A stretch of DNA of 64,000 nucleotides from Candidatus Eiseniibacteriota bacterium. GTDB taxonomy: Bacteria > Orphanbacterota > Orphanbacteria > Orphanbacterales > Orphanbacteraceae. The stretch's first letter is position 1. Every line of letters starts with the position of its first letter. The position numbers and the translations under genes were made by a program. Positions 57,486 through 63,852 of this stretch are shown here, in pieces. The DNA is taken from NCBI GenBank assembly GCA_024276995.1, contig JAJRWB010000012.1, positions 1-64,000 of the forward strand, read 5' to 3'. Below the pieces are notes generated by a model. That model was not told where the DNA came from, searched no databases, and was given only the letters and a program-made list of their open reading frames with translations.

Positions 57486-59493
57486 TCAATCAACCGTTTG
57501 CCCCGCCGCGCGGGCACGCGCCTCCAATCTCCGGATCATCTTCTCAGTTTCGTCCACGTCCATGCCGATCCGTTTCCCCCGGGAGTTCTCCCGGATCCAG
57601 GTAAGGTGGCGGATGGCGGCGGCATACGCTTCTTCGGCGCGGCGTGGTCTTCCCGCGGACATGGCGTCGTCGCCGGACCGCCGGTAGAGATCCACCAGGG
57701 TTTCATGCACCGGTCCTGCGCCGCGTTCTTCGATTCCCGACAGCAACGCTTTCTCGCACGGCGCGATCACTTCTTCCGGCGAAGCGCCGGAACGGTGGCG
57801 CAGCTCGGCGAGCCTGAGAAGAAGGGGCACCTTCGCCGGACCGGAGGCGACGAGCCGCTCGAGTGCTTCCAGGGCGGCGTCCGTTCCCTTCTCTCTCACC
57901 AGCCGGTCCGTCTCGGCAAGCCGATCTTTCCACGGTGCGCGCTCCGTGCGGGAATAGATAGTGATCGTGGGACGGAAGTAACCATAGTCGCTCGGGAGAA
58001 GTTTCCACGTAAACGGGATCGGGCCGAAGCGGATCGGGCGCTCGAAGGTTAAGGTTTTCTTGTAAGACCCGCCCGGGCCGATCTGTTCGAGAAACCGGCT
58101 CCGGGCGATGCGGTCGCCGATCGAATAGTCGGGAATGGCGATTTCCACGTCCGCGATCATCAGTATTTCCGGGTCGTACGCGGCGAGCCGGACCGGTTCG
58201 AATCCGGTGACCACGGTGGGATGGATTTTCGTGTCGATCGGCGGCGTATAGTACGCCCTTCCGTTTCTCGGGCTCGGAACGGCGATCATCGCACCGGCGG
58301 GGACGTTGTCGCGGATCCACCGGGCCGCCTCGTCCCTTACGTCGGTGGTGGAGAAGATCGACGCAATGGTGATCGCGTGAAGGAGGGCGAATGCGCCCAG
58401 GAAGAGCACCGCGGCGACAGCGACCTTTCGCCCGCACCGGACGAGGCGACCGAGGGCGAGTCCCCCGAATAGGGAGGCGAGCACCGACAGCGGCAAGAAG
58501 TGGCGATAGAAGAGCAAAGGGCTTACGACGAAAAGAACGGTGAAGGCCGCCGCCACGGCGAAGAGCACCCATTTCCCCTTCTCCTTACGTTCGGGCGAGG
58601 AGGAAGACACCGAAGGGAAAGAGAATCGCCAGTGGAAAACCGAGGGAGTTGACGATCATGGGAAGAAGCGTCCCCCCCCGGAAGAGGGGGGAGTAGTAGA
58701 AAAGGCCGCCGAGACCGGTGGGGCCGAGGAAGGAGCGGAGATCGACGATGGCGGGAAACCCGACAAGGAGTCCGGCGATGAAACAGGTCGCCGCGCTCCA
58801 TCGTTTCCATGAGCGTCACGATTCGGCGTCCGCGAGGATCGCGTAGAGCGGCGCCGCGATGACGACGATGGAGATATACTTCGTCGCCGTGGCGAGGCCG
58901 GCAAAACCCCATGCGAGGGCAAGTGCCGCCGTGCTTTTCCGCGAGGCGAACCGCAGGGCGAAGTAAACCGCCGCGAGAGACACCGTGCTCGCGGTAAGAT
59001 CCACCGCGGCATAATGGCTCTGGATCACGTGGTTCGGATTGACGGCGAGGAGGAAAGCCGCGCCGTAGCCGGCGCCTCGCCCGAGAGACAATGCGATCAA
59101 CCCGGCGAGGAGCACCGCCACGGCCCCCGCAAGGGCCGAAACGATCCTGCCGCGCAATGTCCACGCGGCATGCAGGGCGGCGGGGGCTTCCCGCCACTCA
59201 TCGAAGGTGAGTCCGAACGGCGCCGGAACCGTGGGATCGGCGGCGATCAACGCGCCGACAAGGCAATAGTAGAACGGCGGGTTGATCATCCAGCCCGGGT
59301 GGAGGTCGAGCCGCCGGGGCTCCATGGGGGAAAGGGCCGAGCTGACCTGCCTTTCGTCGGGGTGAAACGACCGCGCTCTGTCCGCGCCATGGAGCGCCCA
59401 GTCGATTCCCGCCAGGCGAAGGGAGAGAGCGAGGAGGAAGACGGCGACCCACGGAGCCGCGCGGCGGAAATGCCCCCTCCCGTCCCCTGTCAC
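57486..59493 (-). pseudogene. GT39-like membrane glycosyltransferase with C-terminal helical repeats, disrupted
   Basis: The start GTG 59493 overlaps the stop of the PLD-like gene (GTGA). The first 225 codons give a GT-C enzyme (HPDERQVSSALSPM, then helices), then a TGA at 58816-58818 cuts the frame. The same frame continues as RSWKRWSAATCFIAGL and LRSFLGPTGLGGLFYYSPLF, clearly membrane helices of the same protein, until TAA 58585-58587. From there the next frame continues (KEKGKWVLFAVAAAFTVLF). One extra base near 58587-58610 explains the shift; without it the reading frame would be 668 residues. So one gene has two lesions. A GTG at 58610 would give a 374-residue C-terminal piece, which looks like a fragment. 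The function of an intact form would be sugar transfer from a polyprenyl-phosphate donor. Confidence 0.75.
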
Positions 59494-60059
59494 TCGCACT
59501 CCTTCCGAAAGGCGCACGTCTCGCAGAACGAAGCCTCCCACGCCTCGTCGAAAACCGCTTCCACCGCCCGGATCGCCTTCCGGTCGGTGGTGATGAGGCC
59601 GAGCTCGAGATTACGCCGGCTCGCCCCCCGTGCGCCGAGGCCTGCACCGGTGAGATTCGCGCTTCCCGTGTAAAGAAACCGCCCGTCCACTGCGACGATC
59701 TTCATGTGCGATCGCCGGCAGAACATCATTTCGAATCTCTCGGAGCGCGCGAGGGTCGGCCGCGCCGCGAGCGATTCCCTGAACGGTCCCGATGGCCTGC
59801 CGCCGTGAAGGATCGAAATCTTCACGTCCCGCTCGACGAGCTTTTCGAACTCCCCCACGATCGAGCGGTACCACCGCCGCTTTCGCACGTAAATATCCTT
59901 CACGTTCGCCGTGGCGATCTTGACGTATTCCTTCGCCTTCAAGATCCCGTCCCGGAAGACGACGGTGTGGTGTTCCTCGTGGCGGACAATGCGGAAAGGG
60001 CTGACCGGGTCGCTCAGGGGAGCCTCCTGATAACGAGGATCGTGGCGTCGTCGTCCCAT
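59490..60059 (-). CDS. Phospholipase D-like protein, single HKD motif
   Basis: A 189-residue protein (175 residues if the CTG start is used). It has one H-x-K-x4-D motif, RSHMKIVAVDGRFLYTGSANLTGAG, with the following GSAN, so two copies would be needed to form one active site, as in Nuc-type dimers. The end carries CETCAFRKEC, a cysteine cluster. ATG 60059 overlaps the upstream phosphatase gene by 46 bases, whereas CTG 60017 has AGGAGG five bases upstream and forms a CTGA overlap with the phosphatase stop, so CTG is the better biological start. Activity could be phospholipase, nuclease or transphosphatidylase. Confidence 0.7.
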   Translation of the reverse strand: MGRRRHDPRYQEAPLSDPVSPFRIVRHEEHHTVVFRDGILKAKEYVKIATANVKDIYVRKRRWYRSIVGEFEKLVERDVKISILHGGRPSGPFRESLAARPTLARSERFEMMFCRRSHMKIVAVDGRFLYTGSANLTGAGLGARGASRRNLELGLITTDRKAIRAVEAVFDEAWEASFCETCAFRKECE

Positions 60060-61698: not shown

Positions 61699-62142
61699 AT
61701 GAGAGCGGGATCGGTTCGGCTTTTCGGGGCAGGCTGCCTGGTTGTGGTGGCGCTGCTCTTCTTCGGCCTCAGACCGCTTTACATGGCGCGGTTCCGGGAA
61801 GAGGGGGTTCTCTCTCTCGCGCTGGGCCTCGCTGCGTGTCTCGGAGTGGTGGGGGCGAGTTTTTTCTTGCTGAGGTGGGCGATCGGGGCGTCGAACGCCG
61901 CATTCCACCTCGCCTTCGCCGGCGGGATCGCCGGGCGCCTGCTTATTCTCGGGGCGCTCGTGGGCATCTCCCGCCTGGCGCCGGGCGTGAACGGGACGGG
62001 TGTCGCGTTCGCGGTGATAACGGCTTTCTTTCCGCTTACCATCCTGGAGCTTTTCTGCGTGCTCCGGGGGAAGAGCGGATCAAATGAGCGGGACCGGCGG
62101 GACGACACTCCGGGGCGGTCTCGAGCGGGACGAATAGAATGA
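61699..62142 (+). CDS. ATP synthase subunit I-like membrane protein
   Basis: A 147-residue protein with four helices, starting VRLFGAGCLVVVALLFFGL and with ILGALVGISRLAPG and FFPLTILELFCVLRGK. Its position between the AtpZ-like gene and atpB, and its size, are as expected for the poorly conserved subunit I that helps assemble the c-ring. Sequence alone does not prove this. The C-terminus is basic and hydrophilic. It overlaps atpB by ATGA. Confidence 0.6.
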   Translation: MRAGSVRLFGAGCLVVVALLFFGLRPLYMARFREEGVLSLALGLAACLGVVGASFFLLRWAIGASNAAFHLAFAGGIAGRLLILGALVGISRLAPGVNGTGVAFAVITAFFPLTILELFCVLRGKSGSNERDRRDDTPGRSRAGRIE

Positions 62143-63017
62143 CGGAGACAACAGTCGGGGAGTTCCTGCTCGCGCAGGTGGGCGGGCACGGTGGCGAAGA
62201 AGCGGTCGGGGGCGCGGTCCACGGAGCGGAGCACGCCGCCGGATCGTTCGAATTCACCGAGATGTTTCACCACATCCAGGACCACGCGCTCATCGCCATT
62301 CCCCCGGTGCATATCGGCGGTGTGACCTTCGATTTCTCGATCACCAAGTTCATCCTCATGATGTGGATCTCCGGGCTTCTCTCCCTTCTCGTCTTTGGTG
62401 CGGTGGGGAGGAGGATCCGGGACGGGCGCGCGCCCCGCGGCGCCTTCGCGAACCTGTTCGAATCTCTCTTCCTCTTCGTCCGGGATGAGATGGTTTACAA
62501 CATGATGGGGAAGGAAGCGGGGCGGCGTTACGCGCCGTATTTTTCGTCCCTTTTCTTCTTCATCCTGTTCTGCAATCTCTTCGGGCTCATCCCATTCATG
62601 AATACGGCCACGGGAAACCTGGCGGTTACCGGCGGGCTCGCCGTGCTGACCTTCCTCATGACCCAGGCGGGGGGGATGCGCGCCATCGGTGTCGTACCCT
62701 AGCTGAAGAACATCGTTCCACCGGGGCTTCCCGTTTTTCTCTTTCCCATCATGTTGCCCATCGAAATCATGGGGCACTTCACGAAGCCCTTCGCCCTCAC
62801 CGTGCGACTCTTCGCCAACATGGTCGGCGGCCACGTGATCATCTTGTCGCTCATCGGCATGATTTTCATGTTTCGCGCACTCTGGGTCGCCCCAATAGCG
62901 ATCGGGTTCATATTGTTCATCGATTTTCTCGAAGTGCTTGTGGCGTTTCTGCAGGCGTATGTTTTCGTTCTTCTGTCGATCCTCTTCGTCAATTCGGCGA
63001 TTCATCCGGAGCATTAG
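62139..63017 (+). CDS. atpB: ATP synthase subunit a (AtpB), interrupted by in-frame TAG
   Basis: The 293-codon frame encodes the proton channel subunit a. The first part has ITKFILMMWISGLLSLL, FVRDEMVYNMMGKEAGRRYAPYF and FFILFCNLFGLIPFMN. At codon 188 (62700-62702) a TAG interrupts IGVVP-stop-LKNIVPPG, where related proteins usually have Tyr (GYF/GYLK). The rest is intact: the essential arginine R223 in FALTVRLFANM, then the final helices. Without readthrough the product lacks that arginine and cannot translocate protons. ATG 62751 has no Shine-Dalgarno. Sequence error, suppressed nonsense or true loss are possible. The frame ends in TAG as well. Confidence 0.85.
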
Positions 63018-63096
63018 ACGGAGGATCAACATTCATGACCGTCCGCGCGGGTGAAAGGAAACCGCCGGAGGGGAGTCATCAAGGAGGAAACAGGAA

Positions 63097-63318
63097 ATGG
63101 ATTTCGGATTTCTCGGTGCTGGTATCGGAGCCGGTCTTGCTGTGATCGGCGCTGGTCTCGGAATCGGCCGGCTCGCCGGCTCCGCACTGGAGAGCATGGG
63201 CCGCCAGCCGGAGGCGATGGGCGATCTCCGGGCGAACATGGTGATCGCCGCCGCCCTCGTCGAGGGGGTCGCGCTGTTCGCGCTCGTTATCTGTATTCTT
63301 CTGGCCACGAAGGCTTGA
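63097..63318 (+). CDS. atpE: ATP synthase subunit c (AtpE)
   Basis: A 73-residue two-helix hairpin. The loop is ESMGRQPEAMGDLR and the ion-binding Glu lies in AAALVEGVALFALVI. The residue after it is Gly rather than the Ser/Thr of sodium enzymes, and the Gln of the sodium motif in helix 1 is replaced by Ile, so protons are the likely ion. AAGGAGG lies upstream of ATG 63097. It forms the c-ring of the F0 rotor. Confidence 0.95.
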   Translation: MDFGFLGAGIGAGLAVIGAGLGIGRLAGSALESMGRQPEAMGDLRANMVIAAALVEGVALFALVICILLATKA

Positions 63319-63348: not shown

Positions 63349-63852
63349 ATGGATAATCTGTTAGCCATAAACCCGGGGCTCATGATCTGGACCATCGTGA
63401 GCTTCCTGATATTCGTCTTCCTTCTCCGGAAGCTGGCATGGGGACCGATCATGAGCGGTCTCGACATGCGGGAGAAGGGTATCCGCGACTCGATCGAGCA
63501 GGCGGAGCGGAATCGGGAGGAGTCGGAGAAGATTCTCGATGAGCAGAAAGAGGCGCTTCGCCGCACGCACGAGGAAGCGAAGGAAATGATCGCCCGATCG
63601 CGAGATTCCGCGGAGAAAGAGGGGAACCGGATCATCGAAAAGGCCCGGAAAGAGGGCGACGATCTCATCGAAAGGGCGAGGGCGGAGATTCGGTCGGAAG
63701 AGCGGCGTGCCGTGGAGGAAGTTCGTCGCCAAGCGGTCGACATCGCCCTCGACGCGGCGGGCAGACTGATACGGAAATCACTCGAAACCGAGGATCACCG
63801 GCGGATCGTGGAAGATTTCATCGCCCGGCTCGGCTCGGAGCGCGATTCGTGA
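63349..63852 (+). CDS. atpF: ATP synthase subunit b (AtpF)
   Basis: A 167-residue protein with one N-terminal helix (NPGLMIWTIVSFLIFVFLLRKLAW), then a long charged coiled coil from about residue 40 to 150, including the turn at GPIMSGLDMREKGI. It is the peripheral stalk that joins F0 to subunit delta. It overlaps atpH by GTGA. Confidence 0.94.
   Translation: MDNLLAINPGLMIWTIVSFLIFVFLLRKLAWGPIMSGLDMREKGIRDSIEQAERNREESEKILDEQKEALRRTHEEAKEMIARSRDSAEKEGNRIIEKARKEGDDLIERARAEIRSEERRAVEEVRRQAVDIALDAAGRLIRKSLETEDHRRIVEDFIARLGSERDS

Follow-up and report, generated by a model that had tools for sequence, protein, structure and literature searches.

The atpB locus

The window, the whole stretch of 64,000 nucleotides that was analysed, comes from a metagenome-type draft assembly of 81 contigs (3.76 Mb, 96% complete). 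It carries a run of ATP synthase genes and two frames interrupted by a stop codon. Names of atpE, atpF and atpH were assigned from sequence.

58588..59610, minus strand: PMT_2-type membrane glycosyltransferase, the window's other interrupted frame; a single in-frame TGA lies at 58816-58818
61699..62142, plus strand: small open ORF directly 5' of atpB, putatively atpI-like by position and hydrophobicity
62139..63017, plus strand: atpB, F-type ATP synthase subunit a, with one in-frame TAG and otherwise intact by translation and Pfam
62700..62702, plus strand: the in-frame TAG, codon 188 of atpB, where six of six same-family relatives have Tyr
63015..63017, plus strand: normal terminator of atpB, likewise TAG
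63099..63318, plus strand: putative atpE (c subunit), open
63349..63852, plus strand: putative atpF (b subunit), open
from about 63850, after atpF, plus strand: putative atpH

A first-pass annotation had reported the TAG at codon 188 in a frame otherwise open on both sides, among normal-looking ATP synthase genes. Sequence and translation confirm the stop, and atpE and atpF are open. Proteins were assigned to subunit a by an ATP-synt_A score above the curated cut-off together with the conserved Arg of the RLFANM region. AtpB scores 194.5 bits against a cut-off of 33.9, and R223 is present within FALTVRLFANM. The Pfam match, with one TAG inside, runs through the stop (profile positions 1–216, residues 72–284, E 2.8e-57); the genome has no other match to ATP-synt_A.

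The annotation had also stated that homologs usually have Tyr at this position and had proposed a comparison with close relatives. Intact atpB genes of six same-family genomes share the ATP-synt_A domain, the aromatic position and the RLFANM motif but differ in having Tyr (three TAC, three TAT) and no stop. Among 68 homologues the residue is Tyr in 34, Trp in 21, Phe in 8, Thr in 4 and His in 1. The atpB of Calditrichaeota MAG contig RFIL01000167.1, 62% identical over the C-terminal part, has the same domain, aromatic position and motif; it too differs in having Tyr and no stop. No relevant parallel to the atpB case emerged from a search of the literature. Antisense to atpB lies a 417-codon frame (61779–63032, minus strand), probably a shadow frame of GC-rich coding sequence.

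Genome-wide, PF00006 matches atpA and atpD, which lie beside the window, together with a FliI-type, a SctN/FliI-type and two Rho-like proteins (names partly from inspection), and no V/A-type ATPase pair was seen among them. With a single F-type a subunit and no such pair, a backup ATPase was rejected; a truly dead atpB would therefore cost the organism its ATP synthase, and the annotation's reluctance to accept a dead F-ATPase is reasonable. The two FliI/SctN-type ATPases (L122 and L121) each adjoin a FliH/SctL-like gene. One of them is probably flagellar, and the other is probably flagellar or from an injectisome-like system.

In the glycosyltransferase frame, the PMT_2 match (residues 154–282) crosses the stop at residue 265. 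Alignment with the six family genomes recovered no homologue through the TGA site, which makes this the weakest of the twelve interrupted genes described below.

In-frame stops elsewhere in the genome

Stops like that of atpB occur elsewhere in the genome, beyond what the first-pass annotation could see. A sample of about 758 kb (20% of the genome) was taken in stretches. A three-periodic coding model was trained, and genes were decoded with a gene-finding HMM that allowed in-frame stops and frameshifts. Together with Pfam, this replaced an earlier codon-score screen, which had yielded many gene junctions. For each candidate, the frame was joined with X at the stop, scanned with Pfam and compared by alignment with homologues in the six genomes of the family.

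Twelve single in-frame stops were found inside conserved genes with homology on both sides: eight TAG, three TAA and one TGA. Ten are crossed by one Pfam domain; the batD-like and GT39-like stops are instead spanned by homologues from the same family. Besides atpB and the PMT_2 gene, the interrupted genes are as follows.

L148:18763: htrA, TAG; relatives have Ser or Thr
L141:14448, minus strand: sigma-54 activator, TAG; Glu in the six closest homologues
L139:1869: M28 peptidase, TAG; position variable in relatives
L103:15846: trpD, TAG; Glu in five of five relatives
L099:4369: crtI-like oxidoreductase, TAG; Ser in all matches
L142:14155, minus strand: batD-like gene, TAG; position variable
L149:18691: GT39-like membrane protein, TAG; position variable
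L131:2818, minus strand: ccmA-like gene (C28), TAA; position variable
L135:1388: tolB, TAA; position variable
L107:5606, minus strand: large Ig-domain protein, TAA; relatives have Glu

Only the ccmA-like gene, with its internal TAA, is broken among 41 ABC-transporter (PF00005) matches in this genome, and none is among about 150 matches listed for the six relatives. Of 30 matches to the sigma-54 activator model, one has a TAG inside. The other TGA candidates resolved into boundaries between genes (ileS-dksA, SIS/CBS-lipid A acyltransferase and EutN-Aldedh), leaving only the PMT gene. At the last of these boundaries (L102:3364-4227, minus strand) a EutN/CcmL shell protein adjoins an aldehyde dehydrogenase, which suggests a bacterial microcompartment locus.

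Random substitution on the genome's codon usage would give TAG, TAA and TGA at 56:24:20%, and the observed 8:3:1 fits. Nonsense changes make up 2.9% of random substitutions in coding sequence, and the twelve stops imply a rate of about 6e-4 substitutions per base. By our extrapolation, about 60 or more conserved genes are probably broken genome-wide, a minimum, since weak cases escape the decoder. Essential-type genes are interrupted no less readily than others. The decoder's seven frameshift calls resemble junctions between genes or ends of stretches, so that no convincing frameshift was found in the sample.

As a control, 400 kb of three relatives was run through the same decoder. Seven stops were flagged, six without a domain across the stop and one at a stretch end, and none was counted. 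The contrast of eleven stops here with none in the control (p = 0.02) is consistent but modest, as the control is only half the sample size. Reciprocal tblastn with the 400 kb of relatives recovered only atpB here, too few shared genes being covered, and its matches in the relatives looked like antisense or junction noise. The lesions are spread over unrelated genes in keeping with codon usage and none was counted in relatives, as assembly errors would be. Three mismatches in 731 tRNA stem pairs fit the rate of about 6e-4, a count too weak to decide. One of the three is an odd G-G mismatch atop the anticodon stem of tRNA-Lys(CTT) (L099:9993-10068), possibly another substitution error.

Decoding capacity for UAG

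The annotation had proposed a search for an amber-decoding tRNA. The Rfam tRNA model finds 43 tRNAs, and ARAGORN reads all 43 plus a tRNA-Sec; none has the anticodon CUA in this 96% complete draft. A pattern search for CUA-anticodon tRNAs returned three places: the D-arm region of tRNA-Glu twice and a site that is no tRNA. Neither Ala-TGC nor Ile-GAT turned up among the tRNAs; a few tRNA genes are thus absent from the draft, and a suppressor tRNA gene could likewise be missing. The tRNA-Sec lies at L096:4363-4460, and the organism probably makes selenoproteins at UGA.

RF1 (prfA) is intact and complete, with both PAT and GGQ present, and RF2 carries SPF. In a 409 kb sample 281 genes were called, and 66 of them (about 23%) end in TAG, which is an ordinary stop. 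The best PylS match, at 18.7 bits, falls below the cut-off of 178, and such sub-threshold matches occur in all control genomes except one true carrier. Pyrrolysine insertion resembles the atpB case in placing UAG inside a gene and differs in that no PylS is present here. Subunit a is not known to be a pyrrolysine protein.

No single consensus residue underlies the in-frame TAG sites, which stand at Tyr, Glu, Ser or variable positions. The atpB stop is found in no relative, and the contexts of the twelve stops differ. Mixed residues and unshared context speak against both reassignment and a specific readthrough signal. Stop-codon reassignment, as screened for with Codetta (PMC8629427), likewise shows in-frame stops in conserved genes; unlike it, this genome has an intact release factor, no cognate tRNA found and no single residue at the sites. 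Some apparent stop-to-sense signals were ascribed to pseudogenes in that paper.

Origin of the atpB stop

The atpB TAG is most probably one of many scattered single-base substitutions in the draft assembly, which are probably consensus or sequencing errors (probability roughly 0.7). Single-base substitutions would have entered the assembly consensus at random over coding sequence, and one of them would have turned codon 188, Tyr in relatives, into TAG. We infer that the data, rather than the organism, are the source of the substitutions, because unrelated genes are hit, replaced residues and stop types are mixed, and none was found in relatives. The equal involvement of essential-type genes and the lack of frameshifts or further decay make these lesions look most like consensus errors. 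The rate of about 6e-4 per base tells against this reading, being high for an assembly whose contigs reach 277 kb.

Recent, genuine nonsense mutations in the strain or part of its population, which would make atpB a fresh pseudogene or a minority allele in the consensus, rank second after consensus errors and are unlikely. Each interrupted gene has one lesion and is otherwise intact, as in very recent mutations, and mixed residues and stops fit random mutation equally well. However, this explanation requires some 60 or more conserved genes, by extrapolation, to be broken, including the sole atpB in a genome where no V/A-ATPase was seen. Frameshifts are normal in natural gene decay, yet none here is convincing. 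At each of the six sites whose residue is consistent, the mutation would have to be a transversion, a pattern unusual in natural mutation but weak as evidence (p about 0.04 with transitions taken as three times as frequent, 0.27 with equal rates).

Sequence error, strain variant and translation through UAG were the options offered by the annotation; the error is best supported and the translation is not supported. Translation of UAG into a full-length subunit a, by a suppressor tRNA, pyrrolysine or programmed readthrough, would suit the fully conserved frame 3' of the stop, the sole copy of atpB, the in-frame TAG in other genes and the incomplete tRNA set. Intact release factors, the tRNA and PylS results, the ordinary use of TAG as terminator and the variety of residues it replaces all run against it, and TAA and TGA behave alike. 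A new genetic code or programmed readthrough at this codon is very unlikely. Still less probable is broad, residue-unspecific readthrough of real in-frame UAG and UAA by near-cognate tRNAs in many conserved genes with release factors intact. Equally improbable is an atpB split into two polypeptides, the second made by re-initiation at a downstream in-frame ATG. Such ATG codons lie 3' of the stop, and the decoder at a stricter setting restarts at 62769; however, all relatives conserve the stretch from stop to ATG as coding sequence, the break would cut the conserved domain immediately before the helix of the essential Arg, and no relative has it.

When a lone "recoded" essential gene appears in a draft, the genome-wide background of in-frame stops should be checked before a new code or readthrough is proposed. 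This assembly probably holds about 60 or more false gene breaks, with many silent or missense differences besides. The atpB stop is present in the sequence; the biology it suggested is very unlikely, and the living organism very probably has an uninterrupted atpB that encodes a normal subunit a.
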